Assembly: GCF_022761115.1 (NCBI RefSeq)
Contig: NZ_JAKWJS010000009.1
Coordinates: 1-64,000, forward strand
From: Dyella sp. RRB7
GTDB lineage: Bacteria > Pseudomonadota > Gammaproteobacteria > Xanthomonadales > Rhodanobacteraceae
Direction of reading: 5' to 3'
Length of the DNA: 64,000 nt
Both the position numbers and the translations under genes were made by a program. The notes under the pieces are model-generated. The model ran no database searches, had not been told where the DNA came from, and saw only the letters and a program-made list of their open reading frames with translations. Shown in pieces: positions 201 to 48,535 of the stretch (its first letter is position 1; each line of letters opens with the position of its first letter).

Positions 201-270
201 TCGAGCGTCGGCAGACGATCGAAACGCCCGCCGCGCAGGCGGCACCCTGGCGATCACGCCAACAAAGGCG

Positions 271-306
271 AGAGTCCCTGGGTCCCCGCTTTCGCGGGAA
301 TGACGT
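271..306. repeat. REP-like short hairpin
   Basis: Stem TCCCCGC (283-289), loop TTTC, stem GCGGGAA (294-300), followed by TGACG. This is the usual form of short REP-type elements ending in GGGAATGACG that are scattered between genes in GC-rich proteobacteria. It sits just after the larger palindromic repeat and about 50 nt from the end of the EF-hand gene. Confidence 0.5.
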
Positions 307-352
307 CAAGAGCGAAAGCGCGCTGCGCGCTTATCCAGCACCCAACCACCAC

Positions 353-685: not shown

Positions 686-3477
686 CACGCCGCCTCGGTG
701 CGCCGGCGCAACACCGCCAGCGGTTGCGCCCAGGTGGCGCCGGGACGGCGTTTGCTGGTGACCAGGGTGAGGTCGCTGGGCTGGAACACGTTGATGTTGT
801 GCGTGGCCGGGGTGGTGAGAATGTACTGGGCACGGGTGGACTTGAGGAAGGCGCCCACCTTGTCGATGTTGAAGATGTCCAGGTGGGCGAACGGTTCGTC
901 GATGAACACGAAGCCGCCGGGACGGTCCTCGTCGCGCATCAGCGCCACCAGCAACAGCAGCGACTTCATCACCTGCTGGCCGCCGGAGGCTTCGCCGTCG
1001 TCCATGCCGATCCAGCCCTTCTTGTCGAACTCGAAGCGCACGTTGAGGCCGGCCTGGGCCAGCGCGAGGTCTTCGTTGGACAGCTCGGGCAGTTCCACTT
1101 CCACGCCGATGCCGGCCAGCTCGGCCAGCAGCTTGAGGTTGCGGGCGTAGCGCTTGACCGTGTTGCGCAGCACGTTGAGGTAGGCCGCGCGTGCCTCGGT
1201 GGTGATGCGGACGGCGCGTTCCAGATGCACGCGGCGGCGTTGCAGGTCGTCGCGCAGGCCTTCGTGGTCGTTGGCGAACTTGTCGCGCAGCGGCAGGCAG
1301 CCTTCGTCGGTTTCCCAGTGGCCTTCGTTGAGGCGGCGTTCGATGCGGTCGATCTCGCGGCGCACGGCGGCGGGCGATTCGTAGCGTTCGCGCAGCTCGG
1401 CCATGGCGCGACGGCTGCGATGGGCAGGCCGTACATGGCTGCGCTTGTGGCGGAAGGCCTTGAGGCGATCGATCTGTTCGTTGCGGAACTGGTTGAACTG
1501 GCGCGCGCTGTCGGCCAGCTGTTGCTGGACCAGCTTGTGCTCGCGCGCTTCGTTGTCGCGCTGGCGCGAATTCTGCTGGCGCTTCTCGCGCACGCTTTCG
1601 TAGTGCGCTTCGGCGGCGGCGTAGCTGTCGGCGCAGCGTTGCACGTCGTCCTGCAGGGACGGCTGCTGCGCGTGCGCGGCGGCGAACTCGTCGGCGCGAT
1701 CGGCCAGTTGGCCGCTGGCGTTGGCGCCGCGCAGCAGGCTCTCCGCATCGGCGGCTTGCTGCTGCCATTGCCTGCGCTGGTCGGCGAGCGTGCGCAGCTG
1801 CTGTTCGATCGACTGCAGGCGCGCTTCGCCCTCGCGCAGCTGGCGTTCGCGCGCGGCGCTGCCGAAGTAGACGTCGTCCACGCCCAGGTGGCGGCCGCCG
1901 CGACGCTCGCGGAAGTAGCCCTGCGGGGTGATCCAGTCCTGCTCCTTGCCCAGCTTGGCGCCGTCGGCCACGTCCTCGACGCGGCGAATGCGATCGAGCT
2001 GGCGCAGCAGCCACTCCGGCGCGGCGGCCTTGAAGTCGACCACTTCCAGCAGCGAACCGCGCGTGGGCGTGGTGGCCGGTGCGCGATCGGCGACGACGAA
2101 GTGCTTGTAGCGATGCTGTTCGCCGAGTCGCCACGCCGCTTCGCGGTCGCGCGGGTGATCGAGCAGCACCACGTGGCGATAACCGGCCAGTACCGCTTCC
2201 ACGGCGGCCTGCCAGCGCGGCTCGGTGATCTCCACGATCTCGCTGAGCATGCTGTGGCCGATGCCTTCCTCGTCCAGCGCGCGGCGGAACGCCTGCTCGA
2301 ACTCGGGGGTGTAGCGCTGGCCGCGGCGCCAGGCGCCCAGCTGGGCGGTGAGCGTGGTCAGTTGTCCGCGCAGGCGGTCTTCCTCGCCCTGCAGGCGCGC
2401 CAGCTGGCTGCGCGCCTCGATCAGCTGGCGGCCTTGTTGTTCGTGGTCGGCGCCATCCTGTTCGGCGACCAGCTTGCGCAGGTGTTGTTCCTGGCGCAGC
2501 AGGGTGGCGTTTTCGGTTTCCGCGCGACGGGCCTCGTCCAGCTGCTGCTTGGCCTGCTGGCGCGCGCCATCGGCGGCCTGCTGCTCGGCGCGCAGGTGTT
2601 CCTCGTTGGCGTCCAGCGATTGCAGCTGCTGCTGCAGTTCCACATCGCGCTGCGAGAGGTCGCGGCATTTGCGCTTCAGGCCCAGCAGTTGCGGGCGGGC
2701 GCCGCGAATGGCGGCGTGCAGTTCGGCCAGCTCGGTGCGCGGCAGCGTTTCGGCCACCAGGTCGGCATGTTCGCGCTTGAGCGCATCCCATTCCTGCCAG
2801 GAACGCACGCGGCCCTCGGCCTCCTGCAGGCTCACGCCGATCAGCGAAAGCTGATGCTCCAGCCCGTGCAGTTCGCGATCGGCTTCGGCCTGCTCGTTGC
2901 GCGCGCGCTGGTAATCCTCCAGCACGGTCTTGTCGCCGAACACGTCGAACACCAGGTCCAGCAGCGCCTTGGGCGGCAGCTGGCACAACTTGTCGGTGGC
3001 GCCCTGTTCCAGCGTGAGCACGCGGCGGATGGCCTGCGACAGCCCGGCGCCTTCCAGGCGCACGCGGTATTCGCGCAGGCCCAGCCAGTCGTTGCGTGCC
3101 TCGATCTCGTCCACGCTCACGTCGCCGCCCAGCACGGCGTACTGGCGCTGCCATTCGCCGCCCTTCTTCTGGATGCGCACGGCCAGCGTCACTTCGCTGT
3201 CCATGATCGGGAAGAACGGACGCTCGCCGCGCGGCCCCGGGATGTTGCCCACGCGGGCGCGCAGCCACGCGAATGGCTTGCCGTTGTGGCGCAGGTAACT
3301 CTTGTAGTCGCGGTTGCCGGCGCAGTCGATGGTGAGCAGGGTGCGCAGGGCATCGAGCAGGGTGGTCTTGCCCGAGCCGTTGGGGCCCACCACGGTGACG
3401 ATGTTGGTATCCAGCGGCAGGCTGAAGCGCTGCCAGTAGTCCCAGTGGATGACTTCGAGGCTGCGGAAATCAAACAT
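685..3477 (-). CDS. mksB: MksB-like SMC/condensin ATPase
   Basis: 930 aa SMC-like ATPase. Walker A GPNGSGKTT is at residues 31-39. Long Gln/Glu/Arg-rich coiled-coil stretches fill the middle. Near the C-terminus are the ABC signature (ASGGQQVMKSLLLL) and Walker B (GGFVFIDEPFAHLD). This is the layout of the MukB/MksB/JetC branch, and the length suits MksB rather than the larger MukB. It overlaps mksE by 8 nt, and the order F-E-B matches mks operons. Expected role: ATP-driven DNA loop extrusion in chromosome organisation, or Wadjet-type plasmid restriction if a JetD nuclease exists; none is adjacent. Family call firm; housekeeping versus defence role unresolved. Confidence 0.85.
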   Translation of the reverse strand: MFDFRSLEVIHWDYWQRFSLPLDTNIVTVVGPNGSGKTTLLDALRTLLTIDCAGNRDYKSYLRHNGKPFAWLRARVGNIPGPRGERPFFPIMDSEVTLAVRIQKKGGEWQRQYAVLGGDVSVDEIEARNDWLGLREYRVRLEGAGLSQAIRRVLTLEQGATDKLCQLPPKALLDLVFDVFGDKTVLEDYQRARNEQAEADRELHGLEHQLSLIGVSLQEAEGRVRSWQEWDALKREHADLVAETLPRTELAELHAAIRGARPQLLGLKRKCRDLSQRDVELQQQLQSLDANEEHLRAEQQAADGARQQAKQQLDEARRAETENATLLRQEQHLRKLVAEQDGADHEQQGRQLIEARSQLARLQGEEDRLRGQLTTLTAQLGAWRRGQRYTPEFEQAFRRALDEEGIGHSMLSEIVEITEPRWQAAVEAVLAGYRHVVLLDHPRDREAAWRLGEQHRYKHFVVADRAPATTPTRGSLLEVVDFKAAAPEWLLRQLDRIRRVEDVADGAKLGKEQDWITPQGYFRERRGGRHLGVDDVYFGSAARERQLREGEARLQSIEQQLRTLADQRRQWQQQAADAESLLRGANASGQLADRADEFAAAHAQQPSLQDDVQRCADSYAAAEAHYESVREKRQQNSRQRDNEAREHKLVQQQLADSARQFNQFRNEQIDRLKAFRHKRSHVRPAHRSRRAMAELRERYESPAAVRREIDRIERRLNEGHWETDEGCLPLRDKFANDHEGLRDDLQRRRVHLERAVRITTEARAAYLNVLRNTVKRYARNLKLLAELAGIGVEVELPELSNEDLALAQAGLNVRFEFDKKGWIGMDDGEASGGQQVMKSLLLLVALMRDEDRPGGFVFIDEPFAHLDIFNIDKVGAFLKSTRAQYILTTPATHNINVFQPSDLTLVTSKRRPGATWAQPLAVLRRRTEAA

Positions 3478-43539: not shown

Positions 43540-44574
43540 TCAGCGTGAGCGCAGGCTCGACTTGCGCACCACCAGCCGGGCCGGAAGCATCGCGCTCTCC
43601 GCCGGCTCGCCGCGGATCAGCTGCAGCAGGTTGTCCACCAGGATCTCGCCCGCCAGCTTGGTGTCCTGCAATACCGTGGTCAGCGGTGGATTGACGAAGC
43701 TGGCCACCGGGATATCGTCGAAACCGGCCAGGGCCACATCGTCGGGCACTTTCAGTCCATGGTCGGCCAGCGCGCGCATGGCGCCGATGGCGATCAGGTC
43801 GCTGGCGGCGAACACCGCATCGAAACTCACGCCGCGTTGGAGCAAGGTTTCCAGTGCCTCATAGCCCGAGCTTTCGGTGCTTTCGGCGTTCACCTGCAAC
43901 AACGCCTCGGCTTCGAGGCCACTTTCGGCGAGCGCCTGCACATGACCGCGATAGCGGTCGAAGAACTCGGGATAGTGGCTGGAGGCATCGCCGAGGAAGG
44001 CGATGCGCTGGCAGCCCTGTTCGATCAGGTGCGCGGTGACCGCATGGCCGCCACTGACATTGTCGCAACCCACCGACACGTCCGGCTGATCCGGCAGCAC
44101 GGCGCCCCAGCGCACGCAGCGGGTGCCCTGGTCCACCAGCTTCTGCAGCTTGTCGCGGGTGGCGAGGTAATCGCCGTAGCCGAGCAGGATGATGCCGTCG
44201 GCCTTCTTGCTGTCGGCATAGTCGGCGTGCCAGTCGCGCGAGAACTGCTGGAACGAGATCAGCAGGTCATAGCCACGCTGCGCACTGGCGCGCGTGATGG
44301 AGCCCAGCATGGACAGGAAGAACGGGTTGATGTGCGACTCGTCCGCGGTGGGGTCCTCGAACAGCAGCAACGCCAGCGTGCCGGTATGCCGGGCGCGCAG
44401 GCCCGAGGCGTTCTTGTCGACCTTGTAGTTCAGTTCCTCCACCGCCGCCTGGATGCGCCGGCGCGTCTCCTCGTTCACCAGCGGGCTGCCACGCAGCGCG
44501 CGCGACACCGTCGACTGGGAAACCCCGGCCAGGTGGGCGATATCGAACGAGGTGACTTTTCCCTTGATCTGCAC
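43540..44574 (-). CDS. LacI-family transcriptional regulator of the alpha-glucan locus
   Basis: 344 aa from a GTG start (V-Q-I-K-G-K). The N-terminal HTH is SFDIAHLAGVSQSTVSRALRG (residues ~9-29), followed by the hinge helix YKVDKNASGLRARHTGTLAL and a periplasmic-binding-protein-like effector domain: PFFLSMLGSITRASAQRGYDLL, DGIILLGYGDYLAT, GCDNVSGGHAVTAHLIEQGCQRIAFLG and GFDDIPVASFVNPPLTTV. Location and operator type make it the likely repressor acting at the two ATACGTAT palindromes, with a maltose-type sugar as inducer (inference). No further copy of the palindrome is seen upstream of lacI itself. Confidence 0.9.
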   Translation of the reverse strand: MQIKGKVTSFDIAHLAGVSQSTVSRALRGSPLVNEETRRRIQAAVEELNYKVDKNASGLRARHTGTLALLLFEDPTADESHINPFFLSMLGSITRASAQRGYDLLISFQQFSRDWHADYADSKKADGIILLGYGDYLATRDKLQKLVDQGTRCVRWGAVLPDQPDVSVGCDNVSGGHAVTAHLIEQGCQRIAFLGDASSHYPEFFDRYRGHVQALAESGLEAEALLQVNAESTESSGYEALETLLQRGVSFDAVFAASDLIAIGAMRALADHGLKVPDDVALAGFDDIPVASFVNPPLTTVLQDTKLAGEILVDNLLQLIRGEPAESAMLPARLVVRKSSLRSR

Positions 44575-44680
44575 GTGGCCGCTCTCAGGTGATGCCGGCC
44601 GCGTTCCATGTGGCCAGAAGGATGGGTGGCGGCATCCTAGCTGCTTTATGCGCGGGCGTCCCCACGCCGGGGCGCGGGAC

Positions 44681-44809
44681 AAAAAAAGCCCCGAGGATTA
44701 GGGGGGAATCCTCGGGGCCGGGGTGGAAGCGAAACCCAGGGGAGAGGTTCGCTTACCGGTTGGCTCATCCAGGGAGGTGGTGAGCCGATGGATGCCGTTG
44801 CGTGCATCC
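44681..44809 (-). ncRNA. sX13: sX13-like small RNA
   Basis: Read on the minus strand: hairpin GGATGC/GCATCC (44790-44809); hairpin GGCTCA/TGAGCC (44761-44785) with loop CCACCTCCCTGGA; hairpin AAGCGAA/TTCGCTT (about 44728-44755) with C-rich loop CCTCTCCCC; and a 12-bp terminator stem GCCCCGAGGATT/AATCCTCGGGGC (44688-44718) with loop CCCCCC, followed by seven T. No reading frame of note. C-rich loops match Shine-Dalgarno sequences. The arrangement and the position downstream of polA on the polA strand match what I recall for Xanthomonas sX13, a ~115-nt virulence-related sRNA. The 5' end is estimated; no promoter is clear. Confidence 0.72.
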
Positions 44810-45031
44810 GATGATTGAGAACGCGCGGCGGGGCAAAAGTTGCACTCGGCAGGGCAGTTTTAGTTAGGGACGATTCATTTGACGAAATTCCAACATTTGG
44901 ATCGAGGATAAGTGGGGAGAGGGCGCATGTTGCTTGCTTGTCGTCCCTGCGGAAGCTGGGACCCAGTGACTGTTGGCGTGGTGGCGACAGGGCTCGCCTG
45001 CGGTGGGCTTCCGAGCCGCTGCCGCGGCCCG

Positions 45032-45067
45032 GGTCACTTCTCTTTGCGTGGCCAAAGAGAAGTGACC
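45032..45067. repeat. Perfect 15-bp hairpin repeat
   Basis: GGTCACTTCTCTTTG (45032-45046), loop CGTGGC, CAAAGAGAAGTGACC (45053-45067). The arms are those of the larger palindromic repeats at 96-200 and 45372-45475, but brought together. It is followed by an AAGAGAAAGGCCACCCCG-type extension that I associate with the same Xanthomonad repeat family. Confidence 0.8.
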
Positions 45068-45371
45068 AAGAGAAAGGCCACCCCGATGGCGCGCCCTTCG
45101 GGTGCGCGGGCGGATTTCGGAGGTTTGGCGACAGGGCCTCCTGCCCTGACGCCAAACTGGCCGGCATCCCTGCCGGCCACCCTGCGGGCTTTTCCTCCAC
45201 CCGCCCGCCGCGCCATAGGGGACCGGAAGATCAACAGCCAAGAGCTAAAAGCGAACAGCAACAGCCAACAGCGATGAGCAGCGCTTTGCGCTGCCCGAGC
45301 CGTATGCTCTTGATTCATGGACTTGCCGGGCGAGCCGCCCGGCAAGCGCCAAGCGGGGTACCTTTTCTCTT

Positions 45372-45475
45372 GGTTACTTCTCTTGACTCCGGGCATCCTG
45401 CCCTTCGCCCTTCGGGGCGGCTTCGCCGTTCGCATGCGCTCCTGCGCATGCGTGGGCAAGCAAAGAGAAGTAACC
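45372..45475. repeat. Dispersed palindromic repeat, copy 2
   Basis: Outer arms GGTTACTTCTCTTG (45372-45385) and CAAAGAGAAGTAACC (45461-45475). The interior is nearly identical to copy 1 at 96-200, including GGGCATCCTGCCC, CGCCCTTCGGGGCG and GCATGCGCTCCTGCGCATGC. Arm changes between copies are paired (TTTTC/GAAAA versus TTCTC/GAGAA), so pairing is conserved. Confidence 0.85.
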
Positions 45476-45628
45476 CGGCCTCCGGCAGGAGGACGGAAGC
45501 CCGCCGCAGGCGAGCCCAGTCGCGGAAACGACAAGCCAGAGTACAGTCACTGGCAGGGATGACGAGCTAACAGCGAGCGCGCCTCGCGCTTGCCCCGCCC
45601 CGCCAGAAGGGAAGAAACAGGAGGGCGC

Positions 45629-48382
45629 TCAATGCGCTTCGTCCCAGTTCTTCCCCACCCCCGCCTCCACCAGCAACGGCACCGCCAGGGTCGCCGCCCC
45701 CGACATCCGCTCGATCACGCCCGCGCGCACCGCTTCCACGGCATCCTCGCGCACCTCGAGCACCAGTTCGTCGTGCACCTGCATCAGCAGGTGCGCGTCG
45801 TCGCGGGGGTGTAGCCAGGCGTGCACGGCGATCATGGCGCGCTTGATGATGTCCGCGGCGGTGCCCTGCATCGGGGCGTTCACCGCGGCGCGCTCGGCGC
45901 CCGCGCGCAGGGCCTGGTTACGGGCGGTGAGGTTTTCCAGGTAGAGGCGGCGCCCGAACAGGGTTTCCACGTAGCCGTCGCGGTGGGCCTGTTCGCGGGT
46001 GGCGTCCATGAACGCGCGTACGCCGGGATAGCGCGCGAAGTAGCGCGCCATGTAGTCGCTGGCTTCGCCGCGATCGACGCCCAGCTGACGGGCCAGCCCG
46101 AACGCGCTCATGCCGTACATCAGGCCGAAGTTGATCGCCTTGGCGGCGCGACGCTGGTTGGCGCTGACTTCCTCGGGCTTGAGGCCAAATACCTCGGCGG
46201 CGGTGGCACGATGCACGTCGCCGCCTTCGTGGAAGGCCTTGAGCAGGCCCTCATCGCCGGAGAGGTGGGCCATGATGCGCAGTTCGATCTGCGAGTAGTC
46301 GGCCGCCAGCACCACCCAGCCCGCCGGGGCGACGAAGGCCTGGCGGATGCGCCGGCCTTCCTCGGTGCGCACCGGGATGTTCTGCAGGTTGGGATCGGAC
46401 GAGGAAATGCGCCCGGTGGCCACCGCGCCCTGGTGGTAGCTGGTGTGCACGCGGCCGGTGCGCGGGTTGACCATGTCGGCCAGCTTGTCGGTGTAAGTGG
46501 AGCGCAGCTTGGCCAAGCCACGATAGTCGAGGATCAGGCGCGGCAGCGGATGATCGTCGGCGATGGCGTCCAGCGCTTCTTCATTGGTGGAAGGCTGGCC
46601 GGTGGGCGTCTTCAGCTTGGCCGGCAGGCCCAGTTCGTCGAACAGGATGGCCTGCAACTGCTTGGGCGAATCGAGGTTGAACTCGCGCCCGGCGACCTTC
46701 CACGATTCCCGCTGCAGTTCGAGCATGCGCTTGCCCAGCTGCTGGCTCTGCTTGCGCAATTCGTTCACGTCGATCAGCACGCCGCGCTGTTCCATCGCGG
46801 CCAGCACCGGCACCAGCGGTATCTCGATGTGCTCGTACACCGAACGCAGTGCCGGAATGCTTTCCAGCTTTGGCCATAGCGCGTGATGCAGGCGCAGCGT
46901 GATGTCGGCGTCCTCGGCGGCGTAGCGGCAGGCGGTGTCCAGGTCCACCTGCGAGAAGGAGATCTGCTTGGCGCCCTTGCCGGCGACCTGCTCGTACTTG
47001 ATGGTCTCGTAGTCCAGGTATTTCCTGGCCAGCGAATCCATGTCGTGACGCGTGGCGGTGGCGTTCCACACGTAGGATTCGAGCATGGAGTCGTGCTGCA
47101 GGCCCTGCACGGCGATGCCGTAGTGCGACAGGATGTTCATGTCGTACTTGGCGTGCTGGCCCAGCTTGGGTCGGCGGACATCCTCGAAGAACGGCTTGAG
47201 CGCGGCCAGCACCTGGTCCCGCGGCAGCTGCGCGGGTGCGCCGGGGTAATCGTGACCCAGCGGCACGTAACAGGCCTTGCCGACCTCCACCGACAGGCTG
47301 AGACCGACGATATCGGCCTGCATGGCGTCGATCGAGGTGGTTTCCGTATCGAACGCGACCAGCGGCGCGGTGGCGATCTGGTCGAGCCATGCGTCGAACT
47401 GCGCCTGGGTAGTGACCAGTTCGTAATGGCCTTGCATATCCAGGGCAGGATGCGGGAGCGCATCCGGTGCGCGACCGGTGGTGGCGGAATCATGGCTGGC
47501 CTGCGCATCGCCCGGGTCGCGCGCGGGGGCGGTGCCGGTTTCGTTGTCGAGTTCCTTGAGGGCGGCCTTGAACTCGTAGCGCGTGAACAGTTCGCGCAAC
47601 TGCTCCACATGGCGCTCTTGCAGGGTGAGCGCGGTCAGCGGTTGATCGAGCGGCACATCGGTCTTGATCGTGACCAGTTCGCGCGACAACGGCAGTCGCG
47701 GCAATGCCTCGCGCAGGTACTCGCCGATCTTGCCGCCGATCTTGTCGGCGTTGGCCATCACGTTGTCGAGCGTGCCGTATTCGGCCAGCCACTTGGCGGC
47801 GGTTTTCGGGCCGCACTTGGTCACGCCGGGCACGTTGTCGATGCTGTCGCCGGTGAGCGCGAGGAAGTCGACGATCTGCTCCGGCTTCACCCCGAACTTG
47901 TCCACCACGCCTGCCGTGTCGGTGGTGGTGTTGGTCATGGTGTTGACCAGGGTGATGCCGGGGCGCACCAGCTGGGCCAGATCCTTGTCGCCGGTGGAAA
48001 TCTCCACCTCGATGCCCTGCGCATGCGCCTGTTCGGCCAGCGTGCCGATCACGTCATCCGCTTCCACGCCACTGATGCGCAAGATCGGAAAACCCAGTGC
48101 GCCGACGATGGCGAGCATCGGGTCCACCTGCGCGCGCAGGTCATCCGGCATCGGTGGGCGGTTCGCCTTGTACTGGTCGTACAGCTCGTTGCGGAAGGTG
48201 GGGCCAGGCGCGTCGCTGACGAAGGCGACGTAGTCGGGCTTGGCCTTCAGCGTGGCGCGCAGCATGTTGACGATGCCGAACAGCGCACCGGTGGGTTCGC
48301 CCTGCGAATTGCTGAGCGGCGGCAGGGCGTGGAAGGCGCGGTAGAGGTACGACGAACCGTCGATAAGGATGAGCTTGGCCAT
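45629..48382 (-). CDS. polA: DNA polymerase I
   Basis: 917 aa, three-domain form. 5' nuclease (LILIDGSSYLYRAFHALPP, GVEADDVIGTLA, STGDKDLAQLV, TGDSIDNVPGV, ~1-290). A 3'-5' exonuclease domain with intact acidic motifs (VAFDTETTSIDAMQADIVGLSLS, KYDMNILSHYGI, YAAEDADITLRL). Polymerase domain (SSDPNLQNIPVRTEEGRRIRQAF, AADYSQIELRIMAHLSGD, RRAAKAINFGLMYGMSAFGLA, LLMQVHDELVLEV). Roles in repair and Okazaki-fragment maturation. The ATG at 48382 matches the family N-terminus MAKLILIDGSSYLYRAFHA. Divergent from the DUF2782 gene. Confidence 0.98.
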   Translation of the reverse strand: MAKLILIDGSSYLYRAFHALPPLSNSQGEPTGALFGIVNMLRATLKAKPDYVAFVSDAPGPTFRNELYDQYKANRPPMPDDLRAQVDPMLAIVGALGFPILRISGVEADDVIGTLAEQAHAQGIEVEISTGDKDLAQLVRPGITLVNTMTNTTTDTAGVVDKFGVKPEQIVDFLALTGDSIDNVPGVTKCGPKTAAKWLAEYGTLDNVMANADKIGGKIGEYLREALPRLPLSRELVTIKTDVPLDQPLTALTLQERHVEQLRELFTRYEFKAALKELDNETGTAPARDPGDAQASHDSATTGRAPDALPHPALDMQGHYELVTTQAQFDAWLDQIATAPLVAFDTETTSIDAMQADIVGLSLSVEVGKACYVPLGHDYPGAPAQLPRDQVLAALKPFFEDVRRPKLGQHAKYDMNILSHYGIAVQGLQHDSMLESYVWNATATRHDMDSLARKYLDYETIKYEQVAGKGAKQISFSQVDLDTACRYAAEDADITLRLHHALWPKLESIPALRSVYEHIEIPLVPVLAAMEQRGVLIDVNELRKQSQQLGKRMLELQRESWKVAGREFNLDSPKQLQAILFDELGLPAKLKTPTGQPSTNEEALDAIADDHPLPRLILDYRGLAKLRSTYTDKLADMVNPRTGRVHTSYHQGAVATGRISSSDPNLQNIPVRTEEGRRIRQAFVAPAGWVVLAADYSQIELRIMAHLSGDEGLLKAFHEGGDVHRATAAEVFGLKPEEVSANQRRAAKAINFGLMYGMSAFGLARQLGVDRGEASDYMARYFARYPGVRAFMDATREQAHRDGYVETLFGRRLYLENLTARNQALRAGAERAAVNAPMQGTAADIIKRAMIAVHAWLHPRDDAHLLMQVHDELVLEVREDAVEAVRAGVIERMSGAATLAVPLLVEAGVGKNWDEAH

Positions 48383-48535
48383 ACGGCATTCTCGCATGCG
48401 TGCGCCGGGGCGGCATTCGGGGCGTGCACGGGGGTCCAGCCCTGTGCGTTGTCGCTTACGACAGGGCATACGGTCGCTTCACAAGCAGTGCGGTTTCGCG
48501 CTGCTATGCTTTGCATTCTTCAGGAGGCCGTCATC

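Follow-up and report, generated by a model that had tools for sequence, protein, structure and literature searches.

We conclude that the minus-strand element at positions 44681..44809 of the window (the whole stretch of 64,000 nucleotides of Dyella sp. RRB7 DNA that was analysed) is a genuine sX13-family small RNA (sRNA), in a variant form and in a bacterial family outside the published one. With considerable confidence we read it as the Rhodanobacteraceae form of sX13, which would be transcribed by an ECF sigma factor of the RpoE type and whose C-rich loops would block the translation of many mRNAs, including that of hfq, under envelope stress. The observations behind this reading are the predicted fold, its covariation and conservation, the linkage to polA, an aligned promoter motif and complementarity to hfq. 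An earlier note, made from the sequence alone, had already proposed sX13; that identity has stood, as have the place beside polA and the C-rich loops, while the proposal was too narrow regarding the 5' end, the promoter type and the range of the RNA.

Fold, identity and covariation of the element

The four consecutive minus-strand hairpins of the earlier note, the last a terminator with seven T, were recovered by folding. The MFE of the minus strand of 44681-44809 was -62.6 kcal/mol, against a mean of -37.5 (sd 3.3) for shuffled sequences (z -7.6), and 0 of 200 shuffles were equally good. The predicted RNA of about 128 nt, with a start at about 44809, comprises a 5' hairpin (GGATGCACGCAACGGCATCC, 44790..44809), hairpin 1 (44762..44786; anti-Shine-Dalgarno-like loop CCUCCC at 44777-44772), hairpin 2 (44725..44757; loop UCCCCU at 44743-44738) and hairpin 3 (44687..44719; loop CCCCCCU), which forms the stem of a strong terminator and leads into the seven-T tail (44681..44687, read from the sequence). 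The C-rich loops proposed earlier are thus present (as CCUCCC, UCCCCU and CCCCCC), although they had been drawn slightly too wide, part of CCACCTCCC being paired in the MFE structure.

The sX13 identity was confirmed by a covariance-model search, in which Rfam RF02232 matched the window at 44682-44799(-) over the full model (1-115) with 50.5 bits (E 6.5e-8), a score that only just clears the gathering cut-off of 50 bits. Across the genome this model gave five matches at E <= 10, the element being the sole one over the cut-off. A second model, R1, built solely from the Rhodanobacteraceae-side set, scored 118.4 bits at 44681-44810, the window sequence itself belonging to its training set. As in Xanthomonas sX13, the RNA lies downstream of polA, ends in a terminator and, judged from the predicted fold and covariation, appears to carry three stable stems with C-rich apical loops. 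The trait of the Xcv RNA, 4C in loops 1 and 2 and 5C in loop 3, was not found in full: loop 1 (CCUCCC) lacks 4C, which is present in loops 2 and 3. Membership was retained because this trait describes the RNA of one species and is not a criterion of the Rfam family; PMC3771888 reports that a loop-1 mutant of Xcv sX13 still complemented in planta.

Two other Rfam families scored far below their cut-offs on the window, namely ErsA (RF01719; 20.8 against 50) and anti-hemB (RF02837; 23.7 against 49.5), and alpha-r14, alpha-r7, CcsR1 and Spot 42 gave no Rfam match to it at E <= 1. Anti-hemB, alpha-r14, alpha-r7 and CcsR1 share with the element C-rich, CCUCCC-type loops on stable stems. Spot 42 of E. 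coli is likewise a polA-adjacent sRNA, which unlike sX13 is Hfq-dependent and has other targets (PMC3771888). A protein-coding reading was rejected: although both strands carry short ORFs that overlap the element, what is conserved is its helices and loops.

The alignment of polA-downstream regions that had been suggested as a check showed that relatives keep the stems. In the alignment of the window with 43 Rhodanobacteraceae-side relatives (44 sequences; L039, L051 and L079 of the 46 loci were left out because their RNA has an extra stretch), compensatory, both-sided changes occur in 18 of the 28 consensus pairs. Five of the eight pairs of the 5' hairpin (GGATGC-ACGCAACG-GCATCC) are among those with such changes, as are all eight in the model-fitted class alignment described below; on this comparative evidence the 5' hairpin, which the 115-position Rfam model cuts, is a covarying helix. 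At 30 sX13 loci the first base of the Rfam model falls at or beside the apex of this hairpin, so that the 115-nt form appears to be without its 5' arm. The RNA is predicted to begin one hairpin upstream of the model's start, where the earlier reading was too narrow, and with its 5' hairpin whole it exceeds the published 115-nt form in length. Extended versions of it were seen at L304, L051, L079 and L039, that of L304 having an additional C-loop hairpin.

Loop sequences are conserved as well: ACCTCC was found in 40, CTCCCC in 43, TCCCC in all and CACCTCC in 37 of the 44 aligned sequences. CACCTCC had been equated with the 16S anti-Shine-Dalgarno core, and rightly so, since it matches part of the 16S 3' tail of the same genome (GGCTGGATCACCTCCTT; 3' end GATCACCTCCTT). 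On the Xanthomonadaceae side, counted anywhere in the RNA, CATCCCC occurs at 17 and ACCTCC at 11 of 28 loci. By its sequence, loop 1 of the window is an anti-Shine-Dalgarno loop and not the 4C loop of Xanthomonas.

polA-linked RNAs within and beyond the Lysobacterales

As had been claimed, the sRNA lies downstream of polA (45629..48391, minus), its same-strand upstream neighbour, and starts about 820 nt past it; on its other side lies a gene at 43540 to ~44573, whose product, by eye, resembles a LacI-type regulator. The PolA of this genome is closest to that of Dyella sp. C9 (87% identity), followed mostly by Dyella and Rhodanobacter records, which places the host on the Rhodanobacteraceae side of the Lysobacterales. 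In relatives the distance from polA to the terminator is about 180-640 nt. The extra distance in the window is filled by a repeat-rich stretch (44933-45594), where inverted arms measure 82 nt (79%) and 31 nt (87%) and GGTCACTTCTCTTTG occurs three times with at most one mismatch.

A C-loop terminator was found on the polA strand within 1500 nt downstream of polA at 74 of the best 80 PolA loci among 581 confirmed relatives, many of them metagenome-assembled genomes. Within this distance it was not found at L038, L054, L101 and L113, and at L088 the contig ends within the RNA. In Dokdonella fugitiva A3 (L071) the sRNA lies about 150-290 nt after polA on the opposite strand, as also at L186; the sRNA gene seems able to invert in place.

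The sX13 model matched 154 of 299 sampled genomes of the order at E <= 0.1, with 84 over the cut-off, and 68 of the 76 genomes listed for the host's own family. The eight listed genomes without such a match all match R1 at 2e-18 or better, which is a result on sensitivity and not an independent proof, because R1 was built from the same family. The 2013 sX13 paper (PMC3771888) describes the gene as exclusive to the Xanthomonadaceae, and among the papers listed by our non-exhaustive search of the open-licence literature none mentions sX13 together with the Rhodanobacteraceae.

A second, different C-loop RNA was observed in genus g8 (L305; G140:C1:898083-898190), near ORFs that by eye resemble a phenylalanine hydroxylase and an SGNH esterase; no ECF motif was seen at this RNA. 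Weaker second matches were also noted in G095, G194, G224, G287 and G289.

The arrangement at polA, ErsA included, is also found outside the Lysobacterales, and here too the earlier reading was too narrow. We examined about 1 kb downstream of polA in the 80 non-Lysobacterales genomes with the best-scoring PolA among 185 sampled genomes of the class. A scan for an ECF-type promoter (GAAC(T/C)-N16-18-TC..(A/T)) with a C-loop terminator 105-200 nt further downstream, called with an energy-based finder, picked out 28 of the 80 regions, against 1 of 80 on the reverse strand and two matches altogether in 20 shuffled sets of 80. (A first terminator finder, replaced as too strict, had given 19 of 80, with 1 of 80 on the reverse strand and none in 20 shuffled sets.) Folding gave four hairpins for 25 of these 28 loci, and at least three CCC loops for 24. 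R1 gave 41 matches in the 80 regions at E <= 0.1, of which 37 lie on the polA strand (36 loci) and four on the opposite strand. The class alignment fitted to R1 had 93.4% paired cells, with double changes in 27 of 28 pairs; such an alignment leans towards the structure of its model, and slid controls reached at most 49.9%.

ErsA (Pseudomon-1) of Pseudomonas resembles the element in its place directly downstream of polA, its ECF-type motif, its C-rich loops and its length; the low score of the window with the ErsA model, given above, sets the two apart. In G459 the ErsA model has a match of 121 bits that lies some 100 nt past polA, in a region (L234) that the promoter scan had picked without Rfam. 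ErsA-model matches at E <= 0.01 occur in 15 genomes of the class; in nine of these, checked by hand, the match is on the polA strand and no more than about 420 nt downstream of the gene. ErsA is strictly sigma-22-dependent according to PMC7565897, and Hfq-independent for amrZ according to PMC5819304.

Taken over the regions sampled, the evidence says that polA-linked C-loop sRNAs recur in many gammaproteobacterial families. We lean, with moderate confidence, towards the view that sX13 and ErsA are branches of one Gammaproteobacteria-wide polA-linked lineage with an RpoE-type promoter, a 5' hairpin plus three C-loop stems, an ancestral CCUCCC loop 1 and hfq among its standing targets. Alternatively, the likeness might have arisen by convergence, unrelated C-rich sRNAs having emerged time and again in a hot spot downstream of polA. 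Alphaproteobacteria do possess C-loop sRNAs that carry anti-Shine-Dalgarno motifs (alpha-r14, PMC10746234). Among the first 40 class regions searched against Rfam at E <= 0.1, 25 matched anti-hemB, the commonest cross-match, three sX13 and two ErsA; over the cut-off were two anti-hemB matches (L170, L193) and none for sX13 or ErsA. The more frequent fit of anti-hemB, a short and simple C-loop model, may reflect shared design rather than descent. R1 also matches C-loop RNAs away from polA: at E <= 0.01 it matched 35 of the 185 genomes, three of them Lysobacterales, and of the other 32, sorted by hand, 15 have a same-strand match no further than about 1 kb downstream of polA and at least 15 have matches elsewhere or on the other strand only (for G330 and G420 the place of polA is not listed). 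This indicates that R1 picks up other C-loop RNAs too. Against convergence stand the shared order of the parts, from the ECF-type promoter through the 5' hairpin, the CUCCC loop and the CCCC loop to the C-loop terminator, at a similar length, and the agreement of R1 with the promoter scan on 26 of the 28 scan loci, the starts at L227 differing by 18 nt. We regard convergence as an unlikely alternative to the single lineage. CCTCCC occurs at 21 of the 28 scan loci, and of the two forms of loop 1 the Xanthomonas one may hence be younger than the anti-Shine-Dalgarno one.

Two further arrangements near polA were observed in the class. L193 (G428) holds a c-di-GMP-I riboswitch and an over-cut-off anti-hemB-type C-loop RNA (762-846(-) and 226-313(-)), and G467 has four tandem copies of a C-loop RNA directly downstream of polA (C33:13149-13901(-)).

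The upstream motif and the candidate sigma factor

In the window a -35 element CAACTT (44837..44842, minus) is followed after 16 nt by a -10 element TCTCAA (44815..44820, minus), a combination that we take to be an ECF/sigma-E pattern. Aligned upstream regions share AAC(C/T), a spacing of 16-17 nt, TC and a further 7-9 nt before the hairpin. The motif stands at this fixed place at 43 of the 46 loci on the Rhodanobacteraceae side and at 23 of the 28 on the Xanthomonadaceae side, as compared with means of 0.36 (largest 4) and 0.23 (largest 2) in 200 letter shuffles; the loci are related, so these counts are not independent events. It is absent from five of the 28 Xanthomonadaceae-side and from two or three of the 46 Rhodanobacteraceae-side loci.

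The textbook sigma-E -35 element is GAACTT, from which CAACTT of the window departs, and this counts against a sigma-E reading. The strict pattern GAACTTN15-17TCTRA, with four sites in the genome against two for a reversed-pattern control and none at the sRNA, was dropped as too strict in favour of the aligned upstream regions. The rpoE gene of the same genome is preceded, 98 nt upstream, by GAACTA-N16-TCTGA, and all six Xanthomonadaceae-side rpoE upstream regions fetched have GAACTT-N16-TCTCA or TCACA at positions -82 to -92. Among the three Rhodanobacteraceae rpoE regions examined, the host genome alone has the motif (no match in L142 and L153). Across the order a strict match within 350 nt upstream of rpoE was found in 18 of 30 regions, at scattered positions and with no shuffled control, and only the six Xanthomonadaceae-side regions share one form and almost one position.

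From the motif we infer that transcription of the sRNA most probably depends on an ECF sigma factor of the RpoE (sigma-E) type. The motif of the window is clearer than that of the genus Xanthomonas, where it has decayed (GATCCA..TTATAT), which suggests that sigma-E control may have been lost in that genus. The same decayed sequence, with a -10 region like TTATAT and a -35 region like GATCC, could also be taken to mean that the RNA is an sX13 homologue whose transcription relies on the housekeeping sigma factor, in which case the blocks conserved upstream would be an activator site rather than an ECF promoter, and the conservation of an extended TTCACGAAC block on the Xanthomonadaceae side would agree with this. 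This reading appears improbable to us: a search for a sigma-70 promoter in 44600-45000 gave no candidate, the two blocks keep a spacing of 16-17 nt and a fixed distance from the hairpin, and a like pattern precedes rpoE (in the host and six Xanthomonadaceae-side genomes) as well as ErsA. Transcription from an RpoE-type promoter remains our preferred reading, and the larger amounts of sX13 that PMC3771888 reports under high salt, in minimal medium and at 37 C would fit an envelope-stress input.

hfq and the proposed mode of action

The hfq leader of the host genome is GAGGGGAGAACAACAAATG, in which AGGGGAGA is perfectly complementary, over 8 nt, to UCUCCCCU of hairpin 2 (44745-44738, minus), so that the RNA could pair with the hfq ribosome-binding site. 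A run of at least four G within 25 nt of the start was found in 29 of 30 Rhodanobacteraceae hfq leaders (30 fetched out of 41 genomes searched), 20 of them with GGGGAG. In polA leaders, used as a control, such a run occurs in 6 of 68 (12 of the 80 loci were skipped) and on the Rhodanobacteraceae side in 2 of 40. The one hfq leader without the run belongs to G484, a genome that has the sRNA, which shows that the coupling is not absolute. Judging by this complementarity, hfq is a likely target, although its G-run may simply be a strong ribosome-binding site. PMC3771888 reports for Xcv that sX13 affects hfq mRNA chiefly by way of loop 2, that the hfq fusion tested there has its G motif within the coding region, and that sX13 acts independently of Hfq.

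The proposed course of events would begin with envelope stress and the release of an RpoE-type sigma factor, which would drive synthesis of the sRNA from CAACTT-N16-TCTCAA. The transcript would fold into the 5' hairpin and three stem-loops, the last being the terminator, and its C-rich loops would pair with G-rich ribosome-binding sites, loop 1 mimicking the anti-Shine-Dalgarno tail of 16S rRNA and loop 2 matching GGGGAG sites. Such pairing would block the translation of many mRNAs, hfq among them.

The CACCTCC that loop 1 has in common with the 16S tail, conserved as counted above, might also point to a sponge or general decoy, with anti-Shine-Dalgarno loops directed at the ribosome or at RNA-binding proteins and not at chosen mRNAs; given the loop-specific target effects of Xcv sX13 (PMC3771888) and the retention of loop-2-type sites by hfq leaders, we consider this very improbable. 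That the structure is a plain terminator or spacer with no regulatory role can virtually be dismissed, since the final hairpin is a strong terminator but the promoter motif is conserved, the further hairpins covary, the unpaired C loops are conserved and Rfam matches.

PMC3771888 closes by asking whether polA loci of other bacteria encode such sRNAs and whether these act alike. The present analysis offers a candidate promoter class, a predicted start site, a 5' hairpin missing from the Rfam model and a candidate target (hfq). It would link sX13 with ErsA, two regulators studied apart, and propose a sigma factor for the former. In the open-licence literature searched (subscription papers lie outside it) we found neither this connection nor an sX13 sigma factor: no paper names both ErsA and sX13, PMC10306973 names ErsA, Spot 42 and polA, and a paper naming sX13 and RpoE draws no link between them in the text available. 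If common descent holds, the separate Rfam models would need a common parent and a 5' extension. Should the single lineage prove true, Xanthomonas would be the derived case, its loop 1 altered and its sigma-E promoter decayed, and throughout the class envelope stress would be coupled to a broad repression of translation.
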